This document shows, piece by piece, positions 5,294-22,017 of a DNA stretch of 23,624 bases. The notes beneath the pieces are model-generated. The model worked only from the letters and a program-made list of their open reading frames with translations. It searched no databases and was not told where the DNA came from. Within the stretch, counting starts at the first letter, position 1, and each line of letters begins with the position of its first letter. A program made the position numbers and the translations under genes. Source of the stretch: a virus; IMG/VR virus record IMGVR_UViG_3300042520_000670, positions 1 through 23,624 of that record. The stretch is one strand, 5' to 3'.

Positions 5294-5314
5294 CTCGATT
5301 TAAAATGATGTCAA
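5286..5314 (-). promoter_or_regulatory. Leftward sigma70-like promoter
   Basis: On the minus strand a perfect TTGACA (5309-5314) is followed after 17 bases by TAGTCT (5286-5291). It lies immediately after the stop of the 37-residue membrane protein gene, in one of the few non-coding gaps. It shares AGTGTTGACAT with the rightward promoter at 8213. The expected transcript start is about 25 bases before the 5254 start codon, inside the CA-repeat leader. Confidence 0.65.
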
Positions 5315-5316
5315 CA

Positions 5317-5430
5317 CTATTTGCGCCTCGCCTCCTCGATGCAGATCCAGACAATGCGGATGAGCGCACCGGCCAGCATCGCAAGCCAGACCGCTATCCC
5401 CACTTGGAACACCATCTCAAGCTCACGCAT
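5317..5430 (-). CDS. Single-pass membrane microprotein
   Basis: A 37-residue protein with an acidic N-terminus (MRELEMVF), one hydrophobic segment (VGIAVWLAMLAGALIRIVW, about residues 10-28) and a positively charged end (EEARRK). It overlaps the preceding stop by eight bases. The charge layout predicts the C-terminus in the cytoplasm. It is the last gene before the leftward promoter. No family recognised. Confidence 0.6.
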   Translation of the reverse strand: MRELEMVFQVGIAVWLAMLAGALIRIVWICIEEARRK

Positions 5431-5983
5431 TGCTGTTGTCCTCCGCGCTGTGCCAGTCGGTCTGGCGGCGCAGGAACTTCGGCCACTCCAGCGTTGAAGT
5501 GAACGATTTGTCCTCAAGCAACACATGGTTCGTCGGCTGCGCGGTGATGCGGCCATTCTCCAGCCCGCAGAAGTAAAACTCTTTCGACTGTTCTGGCACC
5601 GCTGAAAACGCATCGGCGACCGGCGACACCGTGAACCAATACTCGCCCGCCATCTCGCGCCGATCCTGCAGCCGCACCCTCGCGTTCATCGATGAGAGGT
5701 ACGGGTATTCGAGGGCAGCGAACTGCCACCCGTAGGCATCCCATGTCTGCGCGTCTGACGCTCGCCAAGGCTCGTCGGTCTTGCGGTGCGCGAGCTGGTG
5801 GAGCGGGACATTCCGGTATACCGCCCCGCCTTCAAGCAGGACATGACACCCCCACGCCCGTCCCGGCCACGAGGTCAGCCCGAACCACACCCCGCGCAGC
5901 CAGTCGTGCTGGCCGATCGCGTTGGGCTCGACCCAGATGTACCTGTGGGCGGGCAGCGCACCCGAGTGCGTGTAGAGCGTCAT
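5423..5983 (-). CDS. Unknown protein, tryptophan/tyrosine-rich
   Basis: A 186-residue protein rich in aromatic residues: HRYIWVEPNAIGQHDWLRGV, then VWFGLTSWPGRAWGCHVLL and DAYGWQFAALEYPYLSS. It has neither a signal peptide nor a membrane segment. The predicted content is mostly beta, suggesting a compact globular domain. The ATG overlaps the previous stop by four bases (ATGA). I do not recognise a family. Its place after a possible replication-associated gene in the Cro-like transcript suggests early expression. Confidence 0.72.
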   Translation of the reverse strand: MTLYTHSGALPAHRYIWVEPNAIGQHDWLRGVWFGLTSWPGRAWGCHVLLEGGAVYRNVPLHQLAHRKTDEPWRASDAQTWDAYGWQFAALEYPYLSSMNARVRLQDRREMAGEYWFTVSPVADAFSAVPEQSKEFYFCGLENGRITAQPTNHVLLEDKSFTSTLEWPKFLRRQTDWHSAEDNSNA

Positions 5984-6495
5984 CGGTTCCGCAGCCTCGC
6001 AAGACCGCGCTCGCCGAACAGCTGCCGCACCATCCCCGCAAGGTGCGGGTTGCCGATGACCTCCTTCGGGTCTGCGTCACGGATCGCAGCAGCCGCCGCG
6101 TCTTTCACGCGCTCCATCGCGTCCGCATCCGGCTCGCGCATGGTCAACCGCGCGAGGTACGCCTCGCAGAGCTTCAGCCGGTTGATGGGTGTCGGCTCCT
6201 GCTTGCCCCAGATTCGAGCCGCCCACTCGTCTTGTTCGGCGTGACGGGCGATGTCGGCGGCTTTCTGCTTGTCGGTCTTCTCGACCTTCTCGCCGGGGCG
6301 CGGCGCGGCCTTCTTGATTTCGAACAACCCTTGCCATTGGTTTGCGATCGACTGGTCAACTACCGCCGCTTGGTCGTCGCCGAACCGAGCGAGCTTGAGC
6401 TTCATCGCGTGTTCGCTGATCGGCTTGATGGGCTTGCGGATGGCCTTCCTGAAGGCGACCCATCTCTCCCACGATGCTTCATCGAGTTCGTTCAT
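5980..6495 (-). CDS. Possible replication-associated protein (WERWVAFRKAIRKP...NQWQGLF domain)
   Basis: A 171-residue, helical, charged protein. The opening WERWVAFRKAIRKPIKPISE, then KLARFGDDQAAVVDQSIANQ and the motif NQWQGLF, follow a pattern I know from C-terminal regions of phage replication or primosome-type proteins (W-x-x-W-x-x-x-RK...SIxxGWxGLF). The rest (PTPINRLKLCEAYLARLTMR, then KEVIGNPHLAGMVRQLFGER) is unfamiliar. It lacks a recognisable initiator or helicase domain, so function is a weak inference. A good AGGAG precedes the ATG at 6495. Frame extension upstream to 6570 has no support. Confidence 0.7.
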   Translation of the reverse strand: MNELDEASWERWVAFRKAIRKPIKPISEHAMKLKLARFGDDQAAVVDQSIANQWQGLFEIKKAAPRPGEKVEKTDKQKAADIARHAEQDEWAARIWGKQEPTPINRLKLCEAYLARLTMREPDADAMERVKDAAAAAIRDADPKEVIGNPHLAGMVRQLFGERGLARLRNR

Positions 6496-6529
6496 GTGTG
6501 TGCTCCTGTGTGTATGCGTTCGCAGTGTT

Positions 6530-7270
6530 TTATCCGAAAAGTTCCAAATTCGTATAAGCCCCCATCGCATCGGCAGACCAATACGCGCAGCTCGCGTGGT
6601 GCTCGATGCGCTCCATCAAAATCAACGCCCGGCCATACTGGGTGCGCGGGGTGTAGGGGCCGCGCCACTTCTGGTCGATTCCGGCGTTCCGTGCGACGTT
6701 GCAGCTGTCGGCGGACGACAGCGGCAACTTGCTGAACACGCCAGGATCTAGCATCCGCAGTCCGTGCAGCTTGACCCTCGGGCGCCCGGCCTCGTCGCAC
6801 AGCACTCGCATCGCCTCGGCGATTCTGCCCCACCACCGATCATCACCGACGGTCGCAAATTGACCAGAGGAGCCAAGCGCGATGCGCGGCCATCGCATCA
6901 AGAAGTCGAGGTATTCCAGGCTTTCGTGCATGTGCCAAACAGGCACCGATACGGCAAGCGGCAGCGGCCAGTTTTTCACGAGCTCGCGATTGTCGGATTC
7001 TGAACCATCAATCCGATCTGGGATGACGCACCAATCCATCGCCGGGTGCCGCATCCATCGCTCGGCCCACTCTTGATAACCGTCAAAGTCGTATGCCTTG
7101 CCTTGCTTCCACGCGCTGAACGCGCCATTGTCCAGCACGAACGACTGGCAGATTTCTGCGGCCATCTCTGCTTGACTAGGGTGCTCGAAACTCACCATCG
7201 CGTGTCGCGCAGTCAGCGCTCGGACCATGTCTGCAAGAGGCGTCATCGGCAGGCCGTGGTAGTGGATCAT
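6530..7270 (-). CDS. TGT/DpdA-like base-exchange enzyme (putative)
   Basis: A 246-residue protein with the motif order of phage and bacterial tRNA-guanine-transglycosylase-like (TGT/DpdA-like) TIM-barrel proteins: FVLDNGAFSAW (residues 44-54, D47), DWCVIPDRIDG (79-89, D85), VPVWHMHESLEYL (109-121), RIALGSSGQF (129-138), KLHGLRMLDP (167-176) and PLSSADSCNVARN (183-195, D188). TGT enzymes exchange guanine for a 7-deazaguanine using an Asp nucleophile; DpdA relatives do this in DNA. The likely reaction here is base exchange in tRNA or DNA, but substrate is not decided by sequence. It has no zinc-binding C-terminus and is shorter than bacterial Tgt. The ATG at 7270 overlaps the previous stop (ATGA). 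Confidence 0.62.
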   Translation of the reverse strand: MIHYHGLPMTPLADMVRALTARHAMVSFEHPSQAEMAAEICQSFVLDNGAFSAWKQGKAYDFDGYQEWAERWMRHPAMDWCVIPDRIDGSESDNRELVKNWPLPLAVSVPVWHMHESLEYLDFLMRWPRIALGSSGQFATVGDDRWWGRIAEAMRVLCDEAGRPRVKLHGLRMLDPGVFSKLPLSSADSCNVARNAGIDQKWRGPYTPRTQYGRALILMERIEHHASCAYWSADAMGAYTNLELFG

Positions 7271-7437
7271 TTGACCCAGCCCCAACGAGCGCCCTTGATG
7301 ACGTTGCGGACGGTTTGCACTGAAACACCCAGCCTCCGCGCTATAGACTTATTGCAAAGGTCTCGACGAACGCGGTTTCTTTTTTGCACGGCGCGGCGAA
7401 TCATTCGCACGTCGTACTCGGTCAAAATTTTATTCAC
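7267..7437 (-). CDS. Small helix-turn-helix protein
   Basis: A 56-residue basic protein read from a GTG at 7437 (VNKILTEYDVRMIRRAVQKR at the start). The helix-turn-helix lies in CNKSIARRLGVSVQTVRNVI, followed by KGARWGWVK. The SIARRLGVSxxTVxxVxxGxxW pattern is typical of phage HTH microproteins of the sigma-like or resolvase type. Its stop overlaps the TGT-like start by four bases, and AGAAGG lies just before the GTG. It may regulate local transcription. Confidence 0.75.
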   Translation of the reverse strand: MNKILTEYDVRMIRRAVQKRNRVRRDLCNKSIARRLGVSVQTVRNVIKGARWGWVK

Positions 7438-7544
7438 CGCCTTCTCTCGTATAGGTTAGGTCTATATCCATCTCTCTCCCCATATGCTCGGAAGCCCGGG
7501 AATGACCCCCCTACCCCCCTTAAATCGGAAGGTAGCGAGGTCAT
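7434..7544 (-). CDS. Possible 36-residue protein
   Basis: A short frame starting at the ATG at 7544 (MTSLPSDLRGVGGSFPGF) and ending with a GTGA overlap on the HTH gene start, the same junction type used throughout the region. It is rich in Gly, Arg and Tyr with no known motif. The overlap is the only positive evidence; composition is not convincing, and the stretch could equally be an untranslated leader. Confidence 0.3.
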   Translation of the reverse strand: MTSLPSDLRGVGGSFPGFRAYGERDGYRPNLYERRR

Positions 7545-7571
7545 GCCTAAATGCCCGTATAGCCACGGTGT

Positions 7572-7919
7572 TTAGACCCGCCGGGCTTTGGTAAGCGATG
7601 CCCGGCCCGGTCTTGTGACCGGCCCTTCGCCGACAGATTGAACCCATGTCGAGGGGTTGGGAGATGGGTGATTGACAGACCTTTTCCCCCGGTCTATCGT
7701 CACGACACCTCGATACGCATCCCGAGAGTAGGGCCCTCCCCCCGCCCGCGTCAAGCCCCCGAAAGGGGGTTTGTCGTTTCTGGCCTCCTCCACGGCCTCG
7801 CAGATCACCGCCGCCACGCCGCGCACCCACCGTCTACGCCGAGCCATCACCCGCGCCATCTCTCGGCGACTCTCCAGGTGAGCCCGGTAGTAAGTCCGAT
7901 GGTACGCAGCGCGGCTCAT
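7572..7919 (-). CDS. Unknown basic protein, second gene of the Cro-like transcript
   Basis: A 115-residue frame whose ATG overlaps the Cro-like stop by four bases. The first 50 residues are protein-like and very basic (SRAAYHRTYYRAHLESRREM, then ARRRRWVRGVAAVICEAVEE). The remaining half (from DKPPFGGLTRAGG onward) is low-complexity and runs through DNA that also carries a plus-strand promoter, a tetraloop hairpin and other inverted repeats. The N-terminal part is probably translated. The C-terminal extension may be an accidental read through a regulatory region. Family not recognised. Confidence 0.5.
   Translation of the reverse strand: MSRAAYHRTYYRAHLESRREMARVMARRRRWVRGVAAVICEAVEEARNDKPPFGGLTRAGGGPYSRDAYRGVVTIDRGKRSVNHPSPNPSTWVQSVGEGPVTRPGRASLTKARRV
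7581..7622. repeat. Two adjacent inverted repeats (hairpins)
   Basis: CCGGGC at 7581-7586 pairs with GCCCGG at 7600-7605. Immediately after, CCGGTC (7607-7612) pairs with GACCGG (7617-7622) around a four-base loop. Neither is followed by a T run, so they are structural elements rather than convincing terminators. Confidence 0.45.
7672..7700 (+). promoter_or_regulatory. Rightward promoter inside the leftward gene, with internal dyad
   Basis: A perfect TTGACA at 7672-7677 is followed, after exactly 17 bases, by TATCGT (7695-7700). Between and over the boxes, GACAGACC (7674-7681) and GGTCTATC (7691-7698) form an eight-base inverted repeat with one mismatch, the layout of an operator. It points against the surrounding leftward genes and so would make antisense RNA. 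Confidence 0.5.
7707..7780 (+). ncRNA. Candidate small antisense RNA
   Basis: Inferred transcript of roughly 70-75 nt between the promoter at 7672-7700 and the hairpin at 7753-7772. It would be complementary to the message of the 7572-7919 frame and contains a pyrimidine-rich stretch (about 7735-7747). It would sit like the short antisense RNAs known near lambdoid control regions (lambda OOP, P22 sar), but no homology is claimed. Both ends are estimates. Confidence 0.4.
7753..7772 (+). terminator. GAAA-tetraloop hairpin, candidate rightward terminator
   Basis: AAGCCCCC-GAAA-GGGGGTTT folds as an eight-pair stem (five G-C, one G-U, two A-U on the plus-strand RNA) closed by a GNRA tetraloop. 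It is followed by TTTGTCGTTTC, an interrupted T run. It pairs better on the plus strand than on the minus strand, which has no T run, so it would end rightward transcripts. The weak T run keeps confidence moderate. Confidence 0.5.
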
Positions 7920-8155
7920 GGGCTGTCCGGCGTAGGCCGCAGCCCAGCCTCGATCTTGCGAATCAGCCGCCGAGTGCTGCGCGACTGGTCCTCTTCCTTG
8001 AGCTCGGCCACAACCTCACCGGCAAGCTCACGCAACGCATACCGCTCCGGCACGCCAACACGCGCCCACTTCGATACCGCTGCCCGCGTGACACCGAACC
8101 GCCGCGCAATGGCGCTTTGGTTGCCGTACTTCTTGACAAGTTCATCGACAGTCAT
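7916..8155 (-). CDS. Cro-like HTH transcriptional regulator
   Basis: A 79-residue protein with a helix-turn-helix in residues 13-30 (QSAIARRFGVTRAAVSKW), followed by ARVGVPERYALREL and a charged C-terminal helix. The A-x-A-R-R-F-G-V-x-x-x-A-V-S-K-W pattern is that of Cro/YdaS-type phage regulators. It is the first leftward gene of a divergent control region, where cro sits in lambdoid phages. It has no peptidase domain, so it is not a LexA/CI-type cleavable repressor. The ATG at 8155 has a near-perfect GGAGGT five bases upstream; the open frame upstream to 8209 overlaps the promoters and is rejected. It probably binds sites in 8160-8220. Confidence 0.8.
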   Translation of the reverse strand: MTVDELVKKYGNQSAIARRFGVTRAAVSKWARVGVPERYALRELAGEVVAELKEEDQSRSTRRLIRKIEAGLRPTPDSP

Positions 8156-8164
8156 AAGACCTCC

Positions 8165-8176
8165 GTTGTTAACGAC
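8165..8176. promoter_or_regulatory. Imperfect palindrome near the cro-like transcript start (candidate operator)
   Basis: GTTGTTAACGAC is a near-palindrome centred on GTTAAC with one mismatched pair. It covers the expected start of the leftward transcript, ten bases before the Cro-like start codon. This is a natural place for autoregulation; binding is untested. Confidence 0.4.
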
Positions 8177-8180
8177 CGGA

Positions 8181-8209
8181 AGCATACGGCAAAAAAAAGA
8201 TGGATACAA
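8181..8209 (-). promoter_or_regulatory. Leftward promoter for the Cro-like gene (candidate)
   Basis: On the minus strand TTGTAT (8204-8209) is followed after 17 bases by TATGCT (8181-8186). The -35 is weak (three of six) and the -10 moderate (four of six). The spacer holds a run of eight T on the minus strand. Its -35 lies three bases from the -35 of the rightward promoter. Confidence 0.5.
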
Positions 8210-8212
8210 GTG

Positions 8213-8242
8213 TTGACATAGCTACCGGAGCCGGTTTAGGAT
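8213..8242 (+). promoter_or_regulatory. Rightward early promoter
   Basis: A perfect TTGACA (8213-8218) and TAGGAT (8237-8242) separated by 18 bases. It stands before the plus-strand recombination operon. It shares AGTGTTGACAT and the downstream CA-repeat leader with the leftward promoter at 5286-5314. The expected transcript start is near 8249, about 30 bases before the first start codon. Confidence 0.65.
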
Positions 8243-8255
8243 TCACCCGTCGATT

Positions 8256-8268
8256 ACACACACACAGG
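8256..8268 (+). repeat. CA-repeat leader before the first early gene
   Basis: ACACACACACAGG runs into the AGGGGA ribosome-binding site of the 66-residue gene. It matches the minus-strand leader at 5263-5276 in sequence and in position relative to its promoter. Confidence 0.7.
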
Positions 8269-8278
8269 GGAATTGACC

Positions 8279-8479
8279 ATGAGATACCGACCCATCCCGT
8301 CCCATCTGCCCCCCGCCATCCGGTGGGGCATGACCGCAGGCCAGTGCCGCGCCGGTCGCGATCAGGCGATGCGCTTCGCCCGCCAGAACCCGAAGATGAC
8401 GGCTTACGTCACGATGGCCCGCAACCAGCAGCGCATGATGCTGATGGCCCTGCGCATGGCCCGCGAGGTGCAGTCATGA
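8279..8479 (+). CDS. Unknown small early protein
   Basis: A 66-residue, basic, methionine-rich protein (MRYRPIPSHLPPAIRWGMTA at the start; the end is one helix with NQQRMMLMALRMAREVQS). It is the first gene of the rightward early operon, with AGGGGA eight bases before its ATG. No family recognised. First-gene position suggests an early-expressed host-interaction or regulatory protein, by analogy only. Confidence 0.65.
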   Translation: MRYRPIPSHLPPAIRWGMTAGQCRAGRDQAMRFARQNPKMTAYVTMARNQQRMMLMALRMAREVQS

Positions 8480-8751
8480 GCGGCTTGGATAAATTCGCAC
8501 TCGCATGTCAGGCAGCGTTCTGGGACAGAATCCAGAACAATCAGCCGATCGCAGACGAGTACAACTTCGGCGACCAGTGGCGAGCATTGGTCGAGACCCG
8601 CACGATGGAGGCTGCTCGGGCCGCAGACTTCCGAGTACACCTCGCTCGACTTGGCGTGGACGATGATGGGGATGCCGCAGACGCGCTCGACGAGATGCAG
8701 AAGCAAACCTTCTCCGTAATCCACGACCTGAAGCGCAAGGTGGCCGCATGA
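8476..8751 (+). CDS. Unknown acidic early protein
   Basis: A 91-residue helical protein (MSGLDKFALACQAAFWDRI, then an acidic stretch LGVDDDGDAADALDEMQK, and a basic tail LKRKVAA). The ATG overlaps the previous stop by four bases, and its stop overlaps the next start likewise. No membrane segment or known motif. Function unknown. Confidence 0.68.
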   Translation: MSGLDKFALACQAAFWDRIQNNQPIADEYNFGDQWRALVETRTMEAARAADFRVHLARLGVDDDGDAADALDEMQKQTFSVIHDLKRKVAA

Positions 8752-8933
8752 GCGCCTTCGACGTCGTATACGTTACGGTCGTGACCATCGGCATGACGTT
8801 GTTGTTCGGTGCCATCGTGGTGTGGATGTTCACCCGCCCTGCACCGTGGAGGCGTCGGCGTGAGCGCCTGCCGAACCCCGCCTGGAGAGCCCGCGTCTAC
8901 CAGCCCCACAAGTTCAGCCGATGGTGGGTGTGA
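8748..8933 (+). CDS. Single-pass membrane protein
   Basis: A 61-residue protein with one strong hydrophobic segment (VVYVTVVTIGMTLLFGAIVV, residues 6-25). A basic, tryptophan-containing cytoplasmic tail (PAPWRRRRERLP) follows. It starts with an ATGA overlap. The positive-inside rule puts the C-terminus in the cytoplasm. Small membrane proteins in early operons often modulate superinfection or host physiology; this is not shown here. Confidence 0.68.
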   Translation: MSAFDVVYVTVVTIGMTLLFGAIVVWMFTRPAPWRRRRERLPNPAWRARVYQPHKFSRWWV

Positions 8934-9064
8934 TGGAAGACGACGATACCTGGTGGCACCAGCTCGACCTCGAGATGCAGGAGCGCGAGGAAGAGGAACG
9001 CATCGCAGCCTGCAACACCGCTTTATCCCTACTGACACAGGAACACACGCATGAACCAGTCTGA
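8933..9064 (+). CDS. Acidic microprotein
   Basis: A 43-residue protein (MEDDDTWWHQLDLEMQERE, then EEERIAACNTALSLLTQEH). It is strongly acidic and probably one helix. A GTG at 8930 would give a four-base overlap with the previous stop and one extra residue. Its 3' end overlaps erf by 14 bases. It is too short for most callers but fills the gap precisely in the operon. Function unknown. Confidence 0.55.
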   Translation: MEDDDTWWHQLDLEMQEREEEERIAACNTALSLLTQEHTHEPV

Positions 9065-9596
9065 ATCCATTGCCGCCCTCGCCGCCGCCCTCTCGAAGGC
9101 GCAGGCCGACATCACCGGAGCCTTGAAGGACAGCGCCAACCCGTTCTTCAAGTCCAAGTACGCGGACCTCGCGTCCTGCTGGGACGCCTGCCGCAAGCAG
9201 CTCGCCGCCAACGACCTCGCCGTCATCCAGACGACCGAGATCGGCGAGACCGGGGCCATCCTCGTGACCACCCTCGCGCACTCGTCCGGGGAATGGATGC
9301 GCGGGTACCTGCCCATCCTGACCAAGGACGCCGGTCCGCAGGGACAGGGCTCGGGCATCACCTACGCCCGCCGCTACGCCCTCGCCGCCATAGTGGGCCT
9401 CGCCCAGATCGACGACGATGCCGAGGCGGCGCAGGCCCGTGGCAAGCCCGAGGCCAAGCCCGACCCCGACCTCGCCAAGAAGGTGGCCGAGTGCCAGACC
9501 CTCGCCGACCTCACCGCCCTGTTCAAGGGGCTGACCGAGGCGCAGCGTCAGGCGTCCTCCGGCATCTTCGCCGCCCGCAAGAAGGAGCTCGGCTGA
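9051..9596 (+). CDS. erf: ERF-family single-strand annealing protein
   Basis: This protein anneals complementary single strands and promotes homologous recombination, as P22 Erf does, often to circularise the incoming genome. Length is 181 residues. The ERF core is visible: ALSKAQADITGALKDSANPF, then YADLASCWDACRKQLAANDL, and the hallmark GSGITYARRYALAAIVGLAQ followed by IDDDAE. The C-terminal third is a charged linker and a small helical domain. It lies directly before the exonuclease, sharing TGATG, the usual partnership of annealase and 5'-3' exonuclease. An AGGA lies eight to eleven bases upstream of the ATG. Confidence 0.92.
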   Translation: MNQSESIAALAAALSKAQADITGALKDSANPFFKSKYADLASCWDACRKQLAANDLAVIQTTEIGETGAILVTTLAHSSGEWMRGYLPILTKDAGPQGQGSGITYARRYALAAIVGLAQIDDDAEAAQARGKPEAKPDPDLAKKVAECQTLADLTALFKGLTEAQRQASSGIFAARKKELG

Positions 9597-14481: not shown

Positions 14482-17400
14482 TCACTCCCTCGGAGGTCCA
14501 TACAGGACCTCATACATGAACTGTTGCGGACTCTCCGGGTTCCTCTCGTCGTTCAAGACATCCATCGTGTACTCGCCGCTGATCCGCACCTGACGGGTCG
14601 GCAACCCGAAGATGTACCCGCTGCTCTCAAACAGATCCCATGCGACGTCATTGAACTCCCGGTCCCCGGCCAGCACATCCGACGTCCGCATGAACGTGCG
14701 CCCGACCTTCTCAATCGACCCGGCGACCGGCGACAGCCGCCAACTCGGCTGGAACGCCATCTCGCCCTCGCCGGTCAAGTTTATCATGGTGGCCTCGACC
14801 ACCCCAGAACCTTCCTTGAGGATCGGCACCGAGGCCAACGGGTAGAGCAGCATCTTGCGGATCGCCCACCACGTCTCGTCCTCATCCTCATCCGGGCCGC
14901 GCCCCGCCAGGATTTCGCCCAGCACCGCCGGCAGGATGACCAGCGCCAGCATCCGGGCGACCGCCCGGGGCATGTCGCGCACCCGGCGGGTGGTCGCGCC
15001 GACATCCCGCATCCGGGCATACAGCACCGAGAACGGGGTGTAATACATGGTCAGCAGCTTCATCAGCTCGTTGTCGCGCTGCACCGCTGCAAGGTCTTTA
15101 GCGCCCGCTGCGCCCTGCGAGAGCCGGACCGCCCTGTCCCCTGCCCGGATGGCGTCCTCCTCCCCTAGGCCCTCTGCGAGCGCCTGACGGTATGCCCCGA
15201 TCCATGTCGGGATGGTGATCTGCCGGTCGGCCATCGCGGTCAGGTAGAACGCGGACCGGCGGATGGCCGCCAACGGCCCGACCTCGCCACGCAAGGTGCG
15301 GAGACTGTCGCGGACGTCGCGGTCGATGTTGTCGGACCGGAACTTCATCTCGCCCGACCGATCGTAGACGAACTGCTCGAGGGTCTCGCGGTGGGTGGAC
15401 CACGGCCCGAACCGGTTGTAGTCGATGAGCGCCTGGGTAAAGAAGCGCGGCTTGACGGTGTCGAGCGCGGGGCCGATGCCGGCGAACTGCGCCATCATGG
15501 TCGTGACCTTCCAGCCCATCGTGACGATAGCCATGTTGGTGCGGAACTGCATGATCGCGCGCGAGAACACGTTCCCGGAGTGCAGGGTGTCGGCCCGGTC
15601 GGACACCAGTACCTGCATCCACTTGGTGAACTCCCGGTAGCGGGCCTCGCCTAGCCGGTCAATCATCACCTCTTTGATCTCCTCGTCCTTGAGGATCTTG
15701 TTGAGGCTGAAGATGGCCTCGCGGTGGGAGATGTCCTTGATGACCTTGGTCAGGTGACTGGTCAGCACCTGCTCGTAGTCGAGCCGCACCGCCGCCTTCA
15801 GGTTCTCGACGCGCTGCTTGGTGTAGCCGCGGTCGGTCCGCGCGCGACCGTAGGCGTTCGACATGAACTGCGAAACCGACTCGGTCGCCTCGGCCTGCTT
15901 GTCGCCGACAGCCGAGAGCTTCGGGTCATAGGCTAGCGGGAAGTACCCGCCGCGGTAATCACCGAACCGGGTCTGCACCACACGCGGGTCCACCTTCGGC
16001 GGCGCCACGCCGGACGTGCGCTCCTCAAGCGCCTTAATCTCCGGCCACAGGGAATTGACCGCATCCCAGATGCCTTGGATGTAGTCCCAGTCCTCCTTCG
16101 CCAACTTGCCGAGCGCGGCGTTGATGGAGGAATCGCTCCACCCGTACCCGTCCCGCAGCCGCTGGTAGTTGCTGTCATTGCCGACGTTCATGGCGATGCT
16201 GATGAGCGTGTAGCGGGTGACCGGAGATTCGATTCCGGGCAGCAGCACATCGACCTTGTCGGTCAGGGAATCGCCCCAGCCCTTCGGCATCGACTCGGTT
16301 AGGTCCTGAATCTTCTGGGTCACCATCGCGTGGAGCTCGTATTCCTTCACCTGCGCGTCATTCGCCAGGTCGAACACGAACCGCGCCCACGGCCCGTCAA
16401 TCTTGCCGTTGTCCAACCACTCAACCATCTGCTCGACCTTGAGGATGGCGGCATCGAACCGCCGCCACGCCTTGGCCCCGCGCGCGCGCAACGGCTCGCC
16501 GACCGTGTTGGGGATGCGGAGCTCGCCGGTCGTGGCGAGGCGATCGGACTCGGTCGCCGACTTGATGAGCTCGTCCTTGGTCTCTTGGAACTCCACCGCC
16601 GCAGCCTTCCGCAGCAGTTTGTCCTTCAGCCGTGCGAGGTGTTCGATGTTCCGCACGGTGTCGTAGACCGCCCGCAGCTCATCGACCGATGCGTTCTTGT
16701 AGTTGACCAGCCGCGCCTCGTCGAGCAGCTGGTCTGGGACATTGACGATGAGGCCGAGCGCGGCCTGCTGCTCGGCGAAATCGGCCAGCGACTGGCGGCG
16801 GGCAAGCACCCGCAGCGGCACCCGCCGGAACTCGTACTTCTCGAGGATGGCGTCGATCTGGTCGAGGTAGCCGCCGCCGGCCTTCGCCAGCCGCTCGCGG
16901 GTCGCCTTCTTGTCGAACTTGTTGGCATAGTCGTAGATGCGGTCGAGCTGCTGCTGCGCCTTGCGGGCCTCGAGGTACATGTAGTGGTTCAGCAGCTCGC
17001 GCTGCTTCTCGGTCGCAGCCGCGTTGTAGTCCTTCCTGCGGATCGCGTCGAACGCCGCCTTCGATGCGCGGCGCTCGGCGAGCAGGTACTTTCCGGGCGA
17101 GATGTCCCGCGCCATCATCTGCCCGATGCGACCGGCCGCGGCTCGGGCGAATGCCTGCGGGTCGGCCATGGCGGCATCGACCATGTCCATGCCGGCGCGG
17201 CGCTGCTCAGCCTCCTCGCGGCGCAGGGCAGCGACCACCGGGCGCACCTGCCGCTGGAGCCGGCGGATGGCGACGAGCTCCGCCTTCAGCACGTTGGCCC
17301 GCTCGGAATTGTGGATAGCGGCCATCGCCTCGTCGGCGATCGTCCCGTCCATCCGCATGTCGCCGAACTCCGCAGCCATGCGGTTCGCGGTCTCGGCCTC

Positions 17401-20400
17401 AATAAGCTCCTTGCGCGGGCGCAGGTTGATAAGCGCCGTCATCAGCGCCTCGCCGCTCTCGAACCCTAGCATCTCGGCTGCGGTGTCGATGTCGGTGCCG
17501 CCGTCCTTGGTGTAGACCTTCCGCAGGAACCGGGGCATCCGCTTCAGGTACTCGGAGCCGAACCGGTCCTCGAGCGCCTTGCGGGAGAGTTTGACGGGGA
17601 CGCCGTCCGGCAGCTTGCCCTCGGTCAGAATCGCGGCTGCGCGGTAGGCCGGCGAGGAGTCCACCTCCTCGGTGACCTTCTCCAGCATCTTGGCGCGCTC
17701 GGCCTTCCACCACTTCTCGCGCTCGCGCTGGTACTCGCGGATGAGCCGCCCCTGCAACTTCTCCTTCGCGGCCTCTCCGGCAGCCTCTGCGGTCTTCTTG
17801 TAGGCCGCGAACTCGGCCTCCGTCATGCCGGCATCCTGCGCGCTGGCGAACACCTCCCGCACGTCGAGCTCGGCATTGGCCGACTCGATCTCCTTGTCGG
17901 TCGCGTAGATGCGGTCGAACACGCCGCGGACATCGTCGTTCATCCGCACGTTGAGGTTGGTCAGCACCCGGTAGACCAGCGTCATCCACGCCCGCACCCG
18001 CTGGAAGATGGTCCGCAGCTCGGCGCTCGGGGCCTTGCCCTCCATCAGGTACGCCTCATTGGCGCGGGCGAACTCCTCATGCTGCTTGACGCCGATCTCA
18101 GCGCGGGACTTCACCCCGAACCACTTCATCAGCGTTTCGGCGTCGGCCTTGATCTGCGGACTGGCATCCGGGCGCTCGGCGAGATCGAGCAGCACCTCGA
18201 GGTAGAAGTGGCCGGTCTCGTGGATAAAGGTGGACAGGTCGGCCTTCTCAAGCAGCCCGATGCGGACCTTGCGGTCGGTGCCGAATTGGATGAACCCGCG
18301 CTTGTCTTCTGTGGAAGTAGACTGAAAAAGCGTTACGTCCCCGCCGCCATCTCCTTCGACGAAGTTGTCTTCGCCGACAGGAACTCGGCCCTCGCCTGCT
18401 CCACCATCTTCTTGTGCTGCTCCGGCGTCATCGAGAAGAGACTCGATTCCTGATCCACTGGCATAGCTAGCGGTGACTTTTCTTGCTGCTTCTTCATAGC
18501 TGATGTCCGCAGTTTGACGTGCGCCAAGTTCCCCGTAAAGACGTTTTTCATAGTACCACAGGATGGCTTGGATGTCCGCAACAGACAATGTTTTGCCTTT
18601 GCGCTCAAGCGTTTTCTGAGCTTGATTGACCGCATTTAGCATAAACGTGCGGTCGGTCGCATTAAAGGGGGCATCCTCTAGCGCATCAAATGCAGCCTTC
18701 CACAGCGTGTTAGCCGCCTTTTCAATTTCAGTTCCGCTCTTGAAGCCCTTGGCCTCATAGGAGTTGTGGTACTCCACGGTAGCCGAAATCGCCTCATCGT
18801 CAGAGATTGAGGCAGGATCAACCCCAAGCTTCTTGTCGGCAACCAGAAGCTGCTTGAACCTAGCCAGACCCTGCTCGGTCGGCTTGGTCAGCAAACTGCC
18901 TCGGTATCGATTGAAAGTACGAGACCACCATCGGTCCATGGTGAGGTAGCCGTGCGCGCCCATCAGGTTGGCATAGAACGCGCCAAGCTTTGGACCAAAC
19001 TCAATCGCCGCCATCGGCATCTTGATGTGCGCTTGGTAATCCGACTTCATCTCGCCGCCGTTCTGCTTGGCGAGTTTCTTGAGATCGGAAATCGTGCGCT
19101 CCTGCATCAGGTACTCATGCACCTGCTCGGGCGTCATCTGGTCATACAGGCGCTGCAGCACCTGCAGGTTTTTGTCAATGGACGCTTGGCGCTGATGGCC
19201 GCGAGTTGTGGTGAACTTGCCCTCGGTTGCACCGCCGGGACGGAACCGACCGTAGATGTCCATCGCCTGCGCAAAATTAGGCACCACCTTCTGGCCGTCC
19301 GAGGTGATGGCAATCAGCGCGGTCATCGTGTTGCGAGCGGTCTTGTCGGCCTTCAGCTCAGGAAACGTCTCGGCCATGATGTCAATCGCCCGCTGGAACT
19401 TTTCCGAGTACCAACCGACCCCTGACTTCTCGGGGTTCTGCATCTCAAACTCAATCTCAGCAACCATCCACTTAGCAATCTTCGACACGGCCTCTGGACT
19501 TCGGTTGTCGGCAGCAATGCTTCCGTACTTGGCTCGCTGCCGGGCTTCCAAAGCAGCCGCAATTTCGCGGGTTTTGTAGGTTTTGTTTGGGTCAAGGCCA
19601 AACTTTTTTAGAGTTTCGCGGCCAGCCCTTACGGTGGCGGTCTGCGCAAACTGCACCCCAACATCGCCCATCCCCTCACTCGCCTTGGCGATGAGAGCCT
19701 TGATGGTCGCGTTGTCGGTCGTCGTGATGTCGATGCCCTGCTGCCCGAGGAACTGCTCCAGTCCCTCGAGCGCGTCGGCGAGCTCGGCCAGATCCGCCCG
19801 CTCCTTCCCGGGCATGAACACGCCATCGCCGCGGAACTCCCGGTCCATGGCGTCGAGGAAGGTCTGCTCGGTCTCGCCGACATCGAACCCGGCCTCAAGC
19901 GCAAGCTCGCGGGCTTCGTCGAACGTCATACCGGTCTCGGACACCAGCGCCTTCTCGCCGACCCGCCGGTTGTCGCGGTCCCAGAGCTTGGCATCGCGGG
20001 CGCCGAGCTCGCCGCCCTGATCCTGCACCCCGCCCCGCTCACGCAGGAACTCGGCCAGGGACTTGCCGTAGATTTCCCGCCGGCTCGGGATGTCGCCGCT
20101 GCGGAGCCGATCGATGAGGGGGTCGAGCGCGGTGTCCACCCCGGCCCGGGCCTGCAGGATGTCCGGCAGCGGGGTGACCACCTCCAACCCATACTGGCGG
20201 TGCAACTCCATCGGGTCCATGCCGCCACGCTGCGCCAGACTGTTTATAGCCCGCGCATAGAGGGTGGCATAGTTGTCTGCGGTCGCCCTGTCAAATCGCC
20301 CCAGAAGCTGCCCTAGGACCTCCTGCTTCACCTGTTCGATGGCGGGGGTCTCAACCTCCACCCCCTCCTGCTCCATCATGGTCTGGATCTCGGCCTCGAC

Positions 20401-22017
20401 CTCCTTGCGGCGGGCCTCGAGCGCCTCCACCTCCCGGATGGTCAGGTCGCCCTGCGCCAACCGGACGTCCTTCATCAGGCCGCTGTGGTGCGGGGTCGGG
20501 GCGAGCCGGGTCGCGTAGGCTTCGATGGGGATGACCACGTCGCTGCCGGTGGCGACCGCCTCGGTGTAGTTGGTCGCGCCGACCTCATTGGCGACCTGCT
20601 CCGGGTCGACGTTCTGGCTCTGCCAATACTGGGTGAACTGATCGGCGGGGATGAAGACATTCTCAACCGGACCCTGCTCGCGGATGCGGGCGACATAGTC
20701 CTGGAACACCTGCGGCAGCCGCTCGCGGAGCTTCGACTCACCGGCCGCCTCGCCGAGCGCCTGCATGAACTGCTGGGTCTGGTTGGCCTTGCGGACCTCC
20801 CGCACGTTGCTGACCGCAGAGATTGTCGAACCCGGCAGGCCGACACCGGCACCGCCGGCAAAGCCCGCAGCGCCGGACTCCAGCACCCGCATCAGGTCGC
20901 TGTCTGCCGCCTCCGGCGCGAACTCCTGCCCGCTGACGCCCTGCGCCAACTCGCGCCCGAGGATGACTATGAGCTCCTGTATCGACTCGGTCACGCCTTC
21001 GATGCTTGCGGACTGCAGCCACTTCTTGCCCGCCTGCGCGACGGCATTACGAAAGGTCGGGCGCGCCAGCAGGGTCTTGATGGCCTCACGCGATCCCGCG
21101 CCGAGCAGCCGATCGATTCCAGGAATTCTCTTGGCAAGTGCGATGTCGCCGATTGTCTCAAGGCCGGCATTCAACAGGCCCGCCGCAGCCGCAGCCCCGC
21201 GCGCGACCGCAGGGTCAATCAACTGGCCGGACTCGTCCCGCATCTGCTCGTACTCAACGAACGCGAACCCGGCCTCAGACTTGTAGCTGTAGACCAGCGT
21301 TCCGAGCTTGTACCCGGCGCTACCACCCAATGCAAATGCGCCAGGGACTGTGAGGATCTCCTCCGGCACCGCCACCTGCGGACCCGCTTGGCCGAGGAGC
21401 AGCGCCCCACCAGCGCCGGCTGCAGCACCGATGATTGCGCCCTTGCCACCCTCGCGCACCGAGGACACCAATTGGCGCGCGGTGTAGCCGGTCTGCCCGA
21501 AGACCCACGCAATTGGATTGTCGCCGCGCTCCGGGGTCTTGCCCAGCGCCTGCATCTTGTTGAGCAGCTCGCGCCGCAATGTCTGTTCAGCAGGCGAGAG
21601 GAATTCGCCGGACACCCAACGCCAATTCAGCGGCTCCACCTGATCCATGATGGAGGCTTGCTCAATGCCCTGCCCAGCAGCGCGGAACGTCCGGTCGATG
21701 CGGGTCAGTACGCTGACATCGTCGCGCGCGACATCAGCCTGCTCCGCGAGGAAATTCGCGGTGACTGGCGAGTCTTTCACCAACCCGTCGTAGTCCACCT
21801 CGCCGAGGATGGCCTGACGCTCGATCTCCTTGCGGTCAATCCGCACGGTCTCCACCGGAACGTTGACCTTCTCAGCGAGCTTGCGGAGGTCGGCCTCGAC
21901 ATCCGGGTTGGTCTGCGCCGCGCCGTACATCGCCGAGCGCAGCGCATCGCTCTCCTCTTGGCGCATCAGCTCAAGGTACGGGTTTTCCTCCTCCATGAGG
22001 CGGCGATAGTCCGTCAC
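14482..22017 (-). CDS. Giant polyvalent / internal virion (ejection) protein
   Basis: A 2,511-residue protein. In order: a charged N-terminus; a Gly/Ala-rich hydrophobic stretch at about 193-245; helical segments; a region seen in phage giant proteins (ENVFIPADQFTQYWQ, SDVVIPIEAYATRL); a lower-GC helical module at about 790-1228; a zincin-like site STFIHETGHFYLEVL (H1266, E1267, H1270); a long helical, coiled-coil-rich part; a conserved domain (LISIAMNVGNDSNYQRLRDG, FGDYRGGYFPLAYDP); and C-terminal membrane-like segments near 2353-2375 and 2390-2410. Its position between internal virion protein and tailspike resembles T7 gp16, so it is probably packed in the virion and ejected with DNA; the protease role is inference. 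The GTG at 22017 overlaps the upstream stop, with AAGGAC before it. Confidence 0.85.
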   Translation of the reverse strand: MTDYRRLMEEENPYLELMRQEESDALRSAMYGAAQTNPDVEADLRKLAEKVNVPVETVRIDRKEIERQAILGEVDYDGLVKDSPVTANFLAEQADVARDDVSVLTRIDRTFRAAGQGIEQASIMDQVEPLNWRWVSGEFLSPAEQTLRRELLNKMQALGKTPERGDNPIAWVFGQTGYTARQLVSSVREGGKGAIIGAAAGAGGALLLGQAGPQVAVPEEILTVPGAFALGGSAGYKLGTLVYSYKSEAGFAFVEYEQMRDESGQLIDPAVARGAAAAAGLLNAGLETIGDIALAKRIPGIDRLLGAGSREAIKTLLARPTFRNAVAQAGKKWLQSASIEGVTESIQELIVILGRELAQGVSGQEFAPEAADSDLMRVLESGAAGFAGGAGVGLPGSTISAVSNVREVRKANQTQQFMQALGEAAGESKLRERLPQVFQDYVARIREQGPVENVFIPADQFTQYWQSQNVDPEQVANEVGATNYTEAVATGSDVVIPIEAYATRLAPTPHHSGLMKDVRLAQGDLTIREVEALEARRKEVEAEIQTMMEQEGVEVETPAIEQVKQEVLGQLLGRFDRATADNYATLYARAINSLAQRGGMDPMELHRQYGLEVVTPLPDILQARAGVDTALDPLIDRLRSGDIPSRREIYGKSLAEFLRERGGVQDQGGELGARDAKLWDRDNRRVGEKALVSETGMTFDEARELALEAGFDVGETEQTFLDAMDREFRGDGVFMPGKERADLAELADALEGLEQFLGQQGIDITTTDNATIKALIAKASEGMGDVGVQFAQTATVRAGRETLKKFGLDPNKTYKTREIAAALEARQRAKYGSIAADNRSPEAVSKIAKWMVAEIEFEMQNPEKSGVGWYSEKFQRAIDIMAETFPELKADKTARNTMTALIAITSDGQKVVPNFAQAMDIYGRFRPGGATEGKFTTTRGHQRQASIDKNLQVLQRLYDQMTPEQVHEYLMQERTISDLKKLAKQNGGEMKSDYQAHIKMPMAAIEFGPKLGAFYANLMGAHGYLTMDRWWSRTFNRYRGSLLTKPTEQGLARFKQLLVADKKLGVDPASISDDEAISATVEYHNSYEAKGFKSGTEIEKAANTLWKAAFDALEDAPFNATDRTFMLNAVNQAQKTLERKGKTLSVADIQAILWYYEKRLYGELGARQTADISYEEAARKVTASYASGSGIESLLDDAGAAQEDGGAGEGRVPVGEDNFVEGDGGGDVTLFQSTSTEDKRGFIQFGTDRKVRIGLLEKADLSTFIHETGHFYLEVLLDLAERPDASPQIKADAETLMKWFGVKSRAEIGVKQHEEFARANEAYLMEGKAPSAELRTIFQRVRAWMTLVYRVLTNLNVRMNDDVRGVFDRIYATDKEIESANAELDVREVFASAQDAGMTEAEFAAYKKTAEAAGEAAKEKLQGRLIREYQREREKWWKAERAKMLEKVTEEVDSSPAYRAAAILTEGKLPDGVPVKLSRKALEDRFGSEYLKRMPRFLRKVYTKDGGTDIDTAAEMLGFESGEALMTALINLRPRKELIEAETANRMAAEFGDMRMDGTIADEAMAAIHNSERANVLKAELVAIRRLQRQVRPVVAALRREEAEQRRAGMDMVDAAMADPQAFARAAAGRIGQMMARDISPGKYLLAERRASKAAFDAIRRKDYNAAATEKQRELLNHYMYLEARKAQQQLDRIYDYANKFDKKATRERLAKAGGGYLDQIDAILEKYEFRRVPLRVLARRQSLADFAEQQAALGLIVNVPDQLLDEARLVNYKNASVDELRAVYDTVRNIEHLARLKDKLLRKAAAVEFQETKDELIKSATESDRLATTGELRIPNTVGEPLRARGAKAWRRFDAAILKVEQMVEWLDNGKIDGPWARFVFDLANDAQVKEYELHAMVTQKIQDLTESMPKGWGDSLTDKVDVLLPGIESPVTRYTLISIAMNVGNDSNYQRLRDGYGWSDSSINAALGKLAKEDWDYIQGIWDAVNSLWPEIKALEERTSGVAPPKVDPRVVQTRFGDYRGGYFPLAYDPKLSAVGDKQAEATESVSQFMSNAYGRARTDRGYTKQRVENLKAAVRLDYEQVLTSHLTKVIKDISHREAIFSLNKILKDEEIKEVMIDRLGEARYREFTKWMQVLVSDRADTLHSGNVFSRAIMQFRTNMAIVTMGWKVTTMMAQFAGIGPALDTVKPRFFTQALIDYNRFGPWSTHRETLEQFVYDRSGEMKFRSDNIDRDVRDSLRTLRGEVGPLAAIRRSAFYLTAMADRQITIPTWIGAYRQALAEGLGEEDAIRAGDRAVRLSQGAAGAKDLAAVQRDNELMKLLTMYYTPFSVLYARMRDVGATTRRVRDMPRAVARMLALVILPAVLGEILAGRGPDEDEDETWWAIRKMLLYPLASVPILKEGSGVVEATMINLTGEGEMAFQPSWRLSPVAGSIEKVGRTFMRTSDVLAGDREFNDVAWDLFESSGYIFGLPTRQVRISGEYTMDVLNDERNPESPQQFMYEVLYGPPRE
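18335..19650 (-). other. Compositionally distinct module inside the giant gene
   Basis: Codons about 790-1228 have lower GC (about 49 % in three sampled lines between 18541 and 18780, against about 67 % in flanking sampled DNA). They encode a compact helical domain (WYSEKFQRAIDIMAETFPEL, ARNTMTALIAITSDGQK, GPKLGAFYANLMGAHGYLTM, TMDRWWSRTF). Its edges are FAQT and LFQST-like segments, a linker type common between modules of such proteins. The domain resembles an uncharacterised segment of other large polyvalent proteins. It looks inserted by recombination. Confidence 0.55.

Follow-up and report, generated by a model that had tools for sequence, protein, structure and literature searches.

In the mechanism of the TGT/DpdA enzymes, which has been established for tRNA-guanine transglycosylase (TGT), an aspartate attacks C1′ of a guanosine, the guanine leaves, and another base enters. 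To the bases concerned, Cui et al. (NAR, 2023) reportedly add four further 7-deazaguanine derivatives.

The DpdA proteins of phages CAjan and 9g, experimentally tested DNA 7-deazaguanine enzymes of 306–317 amino acids, are accompanied by folE, queD, queE and queC, and CAjan DNA is heavily modified: it contains 70,628 dPreQ0 per 10^6 nucleotides, and loses dPreQ0 on deletion of dpdA (PMC6884629). Salmonella phage 7-11 and Pantoea phage MED16 are described instead as DpdA-only (group 3, defined by a DpdA in a phage with no preQ0 or G+ genes), no preQ0 pathway being reported for either, and two reports record traces of 2′-deoxy-7-amido-7-deazaguanosine (dADG) at 50 per 10^6 nucleotides, or about 0.02% of G, in 7-11 (PMC6884629) and at 354 per 10^6, or about 0.13% of G, in MED16 (PMC8306585). 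A base supplied by the host has already been proposed for such phages in both of these sources, and dADG is stated by the MED16 authors to have affected the restriction enzymes tried only minimally (PMC8306585). According to the other report, the DpdA-only Mycobacterium phage Orion, whose host is without the pathway, has no modification, YhhQ homologues correlate with no phage group, and the modification status of DpdA-only phages is 'difficult to predict' (PMC6884629). From the record lengths we calculate about 9 modified bases per genome for 7-11 and about 33 for MED16, numbers compatible with a small set of fixed sites as well as with haphazard insertion. Because the modification in these two tested relatives is tiny and its effect on the enzymes tried with MED16 minimal, protection of the DNA in bulk is unsupported. 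Also belonging to the TGT family is Cap10 of type IV CBASS, which is described as an enzyme remodelled for a protein target (PMC11996544).

Genomic setting of the DpdA-like gene

The window, by which we mean the entire stretch of DNA analysed here, is a linear virus fragment of 23,624 bases. The following features, all on the minus strand, are needed below.

5423–5983, minus strand: match to phrog_3704 'ferredoxin' (4e-21), a name that seems doubtful here
5980–6495, minus strand: match to the C-terminal part only of replication initiation O-like proteins (phrog_18589, 1.7e-12; phrog_678, 3.9e-12)
6533–7270, minus strand, stop codon 6530–6532: predicted DpdA-branch TGT-like protein of 246 amino acids (phrog_887, alignment A1, AlphaFold2 model)
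7267–7437, minus strand: small HTH protein of 56 amino acids, in the slot that is the queE slot of sister phages
7916–8209, minus strand: Cro-like HTH regulator (phrog_409, 2.6e-8), heading the same-strand gene run
14482–22017, minus strand: single ORF of 2511 amino acids among presumed structural genes (ORF list)

The open reading frame of the DpdA-like gene begins with an ATG at position 7270, its final codon ends at 6533, and its stop codon occupies 6532–6530; the plus-strand frame of 6530–7270 contains stops, and so is not open. Immediately upstream, the TGA of the small HTH gene overlaps the ATG by four bases (ATGA). The next gene downstream is the O-like gene, the matching N-terminal part of which is absent from the searched stretch. 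Rightward genes of the window encode an Erf-like annealing protein, an exonuclease, a NinB-like protein and an HNH protein, and a leftward ORF that runs off the left edge matches phage terminase genes, being nearest to those of Acetobacter phage phiAX1 and Stenotrophomonas phages BUCT708/709 (50–52%). The original prediction had placed the DpdA-like gene in a transcript headed by the Cro-like gene, and on that ground expected it to act early. The genes do lie on one strand, but a scan of the minus strand from 5300 to 9200 yielded no sigma-70-like site, and early action would be conjecture. A second match of the DpdA-like protein within the window, at 18866–19060, was set aside as noise (13.8 bits, one internal stop).

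Sequence relationships of the DpdA-like protein

In a PHROG search, the best family of the window protein is phrog_887 (E=1.9e-61), which is also the best family for the DpdA proteins of CAjan, 9g and 7-11 and for gp23 of BTP1, and which the MED16 protein matches at 3.1e-72. Local alignment finds 62 of 169 residues identical in 7-11 gp32 and 73 of 191 in MED16 gp38, and the corresponding figure is 112 of 227 for BTP1 gp23, a lambdoid prophage 'queuine tRNA-ribosyltransferase' whose gene order places it with the accessory genes of the left operon. Local alignment scores, with the best of 100 shuffles in brackets, are 129 (49) for CAjan, 247 (61) for 7-11 and 341 (47) for MED16. Single-query tblastn reaches 7-11 at 2e-20, CAjan at 2e-6 and 9g at a marginal 4e-3, hhalign against a profile of six CAjan/9g-type DpdAs gives an E of 3.4e-14 over 157 columns, and a profile comparison of alignments A1 and A2 gives 8.7e-13. 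In the hhalign result, D47, H113 and D188 of the window protein are aligned with a D, an H and a D, respectively, in CAjan. LDNGAF is aligned with LDSGAF and ADS with CDS of the CAjan/9g proteins, such that LDSGAF, H, and the DS around the second aspartate are collinear. The motifs on which the identification had first been based (LDNGAFSAW, IPDRIDG, HMHES, LGSSG, LHGLRMLDP and SSADS) were all found in the 246-amino-acid translation.

At E<=1e-5, relatives were matched in 148 of 50,697 phage records; a limit of E<=0.01 raised the number to 226. A pattern search of IMG/VR gave 184 matches, including 181 relatives, of which 80 were retained, and bacterial genome contigs provided 60 loci with a relative. 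Four of the 80 IMG/VR loci (L001–L004) represent the window's own phage, with DNA 99.9–100% identical. In alignment A1, comprising 50 sequences, D47, D85, H113, H169 and D188 are invariant; among 126 distinct family sequences, the first four residues are present in all and D188 in 124. Five of the 142 loci surveyed below (L079, L138, L147, L151 and, at its start, L083), mostly fragments, were left out of this larger set for want of a full protein, and 7-11 re-entered it via its annotated CDS. Measured against ten chosen relatives, pN is 0.18–0.25 and pS 0.70–0.89, values that indicate strong purifying selection, and by its sequence the DpdA-like gene is real, beyond chance.

The CxCxxC zinc motif, present in E. 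coli TGT, occurs in none of 138 family proteins, including that of the window, and in none of the six CAjan/9g-type DpdAs. The protein had been singled out as short and devoid of a zinc site; the motif is indeed absent, but because the CAjan/9g-type proteins are also without it, a phage DpdA that lacks it is nothing out of the ordinary. The Pfam TGT family, PF01702, gives no hmmscan match for the protein and none in the window, and matches in 13 of 13 host genomes. Pfam otherwise returned only DUF1569, below its cut-off, NCBIfam returned no family for the window protein, and PADLOC returned nothing. The cut-off of NF041059, the NCBIfam DpdA equivalog, was not reached; because CAjan itself scores 16.9 bits against a cut-off of 200, this model does not cover phage DpdA. 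Searches of the PDB gave a best E of 0.23, to aldolases, with the single sequence, and found no sequence with the profile.

In the family tree, a very long branch leads to the CAjan/9g group, 7-11 and HK106 are placed in a small cluster together with Opt-79 and a prophage of Serratia, and the clade of the window protein is made up of IMG/VR phages and is separate from 7-11 (MED16 is absent from the tree). The common family, the profile alignment and the fold ranking described below bear out the TGT/DpdA-like identity given in the original prediction. Judged on these sequence relationships, the window protein is a TGT-superfamily member of DpdA type, in itself ordinary, and probably another case of the known DpdA-only kind.

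Predicted fold

An AlphaFold2 model computed with 50 window and IMG/VR sequences has a mean pLDDT of 88.5 and a pTM of 0.85. The best 50 rows from Foldseek were other TIM barrels, mostly tryptophan synthase alpha; on re-ranking of the Foldseek candidates with VIA-align, the best 50 rows were all of the TGT fold, with Z from 14.0 to 15.5. The top structural row is Cap10 (9ntn), aligned over 232 residues with 11% identity at Z 15.5, and archaeal TGT and Zymomonas TGT have Z of 14.7 and 14.6, respectively; because Z differs by under 1, the Cap10 and TGT rows are tied. The window protein is therefore predicted to fold as a TGT-type TIM barrel. It resembles bacterial and archaeal TGTs in predicted fold (Z 14.0–14.7) and differs from them in having no zinc motif, in being shorter, and in giving no significant sequence match. 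The original prediction had looked to a TIM barrel, and to an alignment of D47 or D188 with catalytic residues of TGT, as the tests of identity. A barrel of this type is predicted and the residues align with those of CAjan DpdA, but direct hhalign alignment with 14 bacterial TGTs is insignificant (E 0.052), and the match of D188 to the TGT nucleophile runs through DpdA only.

7-deazaguanine genes in the window and in relatives

Searches for QueC, QueD, QueE (phrog_2076) and FolE gave no match in the window, with CAjan and 9g controls positive each time. The claim that no preQ0 pathway gene is present in the 23.6 kb is upheld for the window and limited to it, because the record is a fragment. 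Relatives do carry queE, and those with 66–70% identical proteins have it directly upstream of the DpdA-like gene. QueE is over its cut-off in 5 of 33 IMG/VR records, and QueC, QueD and FolE are over theirs in none of the window and these 33 records, which are possibly fragments; none of the 5 of these records that carry QueE, each possibly a fragment as well, yielded QueC. A sub-cut-off QueC match in the record of locus L048 (G017) proved to be a PAPS-reductase-like PP-loop protein instead. Relatives of this protein (L048:6838–8022), the identification of which applies to L048 only, occur in the vicinity of the DpdA-like gene at 12 of the 142 loci surveyed below.

Host genomes favour a supply of the base by the host, though with limited discrimination. 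Of 49 isolate genomes in which a relative occurs, 47 contain QueC at E<1e-60 (11 MAGs among the 60 loci were left out), and the remaining two have no true QueC, with no match in G042 and a best E of 1.5e-4 in G077; because QueC is common in such hosts, the count discriminates little. G077, Rhizobium subbaraonis, has a TGT and no true QueC, and its locus, L144, carries a VUT-like gene, a single case in the expected direction.

Partner genes adjoining the DpdA-like gene

Neighbours within 3 kb of the DpdA-like gene were surveyed in 142 loci: 80 from IMG/VR, 60 on genome contigs, and those of 7-11 and BTP1. In 19 of these loci, the gene immediately upstream encodes a QueE-type radical SAM protein and overlaps the DpdA-like gene by 4 bases, and another QueE type is located 10 bases downstream in one locus, L041. 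For the two upstream QueEs tested, QueE models were the top NCBIfam matches (TIGR04322, scoring 175 and 182 bits where the cut-off is 200), and one upstream QueE matches phrog_2076 at 1.6e-40. The CX3CX2C and GGEP motifs are kept in 19 of 20 QueEs, with L041 as the exception. In 17 loci, a gene for a VUT/YhhQ-like membrane protein adjoins the DpdA-like gene, either upstream with a 4-base overlap (7 loci) or downstream at a distance of at most 271 bases (10 loci). PF02592 is above its cut-off in 7 of 33 IMG/VR records, adjoining the DpdA-like gene by coordinates in each, and below it in CAjan. The VUT proteins L054:2376–2873 and L112:9537–10001 belong to phrog_4899, which is listed as function unknown, and TIGR00697, 'queuosine precursor transporter', matches the first weakly (8e-4) and the second not at all.

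The upstream slot is held by a small HTH gene, again with a 4-base overlap, in 20 of the 142 loci, including L001–L004. A family of 80-amino-acid proteins, to which L113:9750–10001 (phrog_37496) belongs, occurs upstream in 23 loci, all on bacterial contigs and 20 of them in Pseudomonas. These genes overlap by 4 bases in 19 loci and by 1 base in 3, and lie 234 bases away in 1; in 22 of the 23, a gene of this family adjoins or overlaps the DpdA-like start, in the slot held elsewhere by QueE or HTH. None of the four recurrent partners is present in 60 loci, in 3 of them through a contig end. One locus with neither a queE nor a VUT partner in view is that of BTP1, where gp23, in a further difference from the window, adjoins ead/ea22. 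Because several loci carry identical proteins, as do the six VUT loci L070–L075, independent cases are fewer than these locus counts. The overlaps are based on the ends of the partner ORFs; a census of ATGA is uninformative, since an Ile codon (ATH) follows the start codon in nearly every case and ATGA then arises trivially.

In the tree, the window falls within a 27-row clade (SH-aLRT 95, by a quick method) that consists of 16 HTH rows, 10 QueE rows, and L008, whose contig ends at the slot; 5 of the 16 HTH rows are the window's phage. Within this clade, the small HTH gene occupies the slot held by queE in sister phages, and at least five changes are needed among HTH and QueE rows. VUT and QueE each require at least seven changes over the whole tree, all of these counts being taken from a quick tree with many weak branches and without a shuffled control. 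The changes recur on the tree, and partners therefore change around the DpdA-like gene. The window is thereby distinguishable from the DpdA-only phages 7-11 and MED16, both by its separate IMG/VR clade (relative to 7-11) and by the HTH gene in its upstream slot.

Since the 142 loci had been picked for the DpdA-like gene, reverse searches were run from the partners. Starting from the VUT protein, 24 of 24 IMG/VR loci have a DpdA-like gene within 240 bases, 19 of them on new contigs and 5 on known ones. Starting from QueE, 14 of 16 IMG/VR loci adjoin a DpdA-like gene, all 14 on contigs already known, and the two exceptions are remote QueEs, about 30% identical. Among the 50,697 GenBank phage records, VUT was found in 21, and a DpdA-like gene adjoins it in at least 14 of these (12 phages when RefSeq copies are merged, some of the 14 records being near-identical phages), where chance would be expected to give about 0.1 shared records with 226 of 50,697 carrying the gene or a relative. 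The other seven VUT records, six mEp phages and MagusPhagus, have no DpdA-like gene among the matches listed, and the whole mEp021 record has no phrog_887 match. The neighbour of VUT in mEp021, annotated as a cytosine methyltransferase, was considered and rejected, its translation being unlike DpdA.

Proposed function and alternatives

We think it probable, without regarding the case as strong, that the window gene encodes an active DpdA-family enzyme of the DpdA-only (singleton) kind that swaps guanine in DNA for a host-made 7-deazaguanine, where activity, target, base and supply are all things that we infer. One of two conserved aspartates, the putative catalytic D47 or D188, would attack C1′ of the target guanosine, the guanine would depart, and a host-made base, preQ0 or a close derivative, would fill the vacated place. 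The likely target would be the phage's own DNA, at few positions, and for a protective role, too, we infer only that it may exist. The dADG of MED16 and 7-11 speaks for the DNA target, and the tight linkage of queE or VUT to the gene in relatives for the substrate; the window itself carries neither partner, which counts against this reading, as do the 60 loci with none of the recurrent partners. In close relatives, pairing with a partner that makes, or probably imports, a base suggests where the base comes from. The original prediction had offered a host-made base as one option, a sound guess that has been published for DpdA-only phages (PMC6884629, PMC8306585). Another of its options, tRNA modification, is weaker.

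A true tRNA enzyme would replace guanine in host or phage tRNA with preQ0, preQ1 or queuine and would thereby tune translation in infection. The predicted TGT fold is in keeping with such a role, PHROG and several GenBank records call relatives queuine tRNA-ribosyltransferase, and the 13 of 13 host genomes with their own TGT imply that a base pool exists; the very low DNA modification measured in relatives (PMC8306585, PMC6884629) would also be accommodated. We nonetheless judge a tRNA enzyme unlikely, as the protein has 246 amino acids against 375 in E. coli TGT and no CxCxxC, is nearer to DNA-acting phage DpdA than to TGT, and has in 9g dpdA a relative with which Q was not restored in a tgt mutant of E. 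coli (PMC6884629).

The position of 9ntn at the head of the structural ranking raises the alternative of a target other than nucleic acid, in which the window protein would bind or modify as Cap10, itself remodelled for protein (PMC11996544), binds 7-amido-7-deazaguanine on a protein N-terminus, serving conjugation, recognition or counter-defence. The tie with archaeal TGT, the lack of a PDB sequence match, the lack of a QueC-family (Cap9-like) match in the window fragment, and the retention of DpdA motifs including both aspartates (compared on the DpdA-like side only) make this distinctly improbable. Slighter still is the chance that the protein is a degenerate relative that has lost base exchange and has an accessory role in DNA binding or regulation: retention of the putative catalytic aspartates in 124–126 of 126 sequences, strong purifying selection, and the recurrence of queE or VUT beside the gene in relatives all argue otherwise, even though very low modification in tested relatives, a window with no supply gene, and the pairing with an HTH gene would be compatible with it.

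Returning to an enzyme that modifies DNA, we put forward as a tentative extension, which we would not yet bet on, that the DpdA-only branch is modular and that a partner translated together with the enzyme determines where the base comes from: QueE, a VUT/YhhQ-like importer, or the host pool alone where an unrelated gene, such as the HTH gene, fills the slot. Phages that have QueE and lack QueC may be inserting 7-carboxy-7-deazaguanine or supplying the QueC of the host. If the branch is modular, the tiny amount of modification would reflect few chosen sites and not bulk camouflage. The DpdA-only gene itself is of a known kind; the swappable queE and VUT partners look new, and would be the new part for a specialist, no description of queE or VUT adjacent to a singleton DpdA having been found in the open-licence PMC literature. 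The linkage would give the DpdA-only branch a likely substrate, puts phrog_4899 forward as a candidate importer of 7-deazaguanine precursors, and makes the role of singleton DpdA testable by single-gene expression and mass spectrometry.

Three GenBank records encountered in the family search are also noted here. In OR053651.1 and OQ829281.1, the DpdA-like match lies under an annotation as putative Co/Zn/Cd efflux membrane fusion protein, which is probably a misannotation. OR850331.1 ('Staphylococcus phage SA 1298 Kay', 1,719 bases) contains a DpdA-like gene at 47.4%, comparable to the copies in Salmonella phages, and is perhaps a mislabelled or contaminated record.
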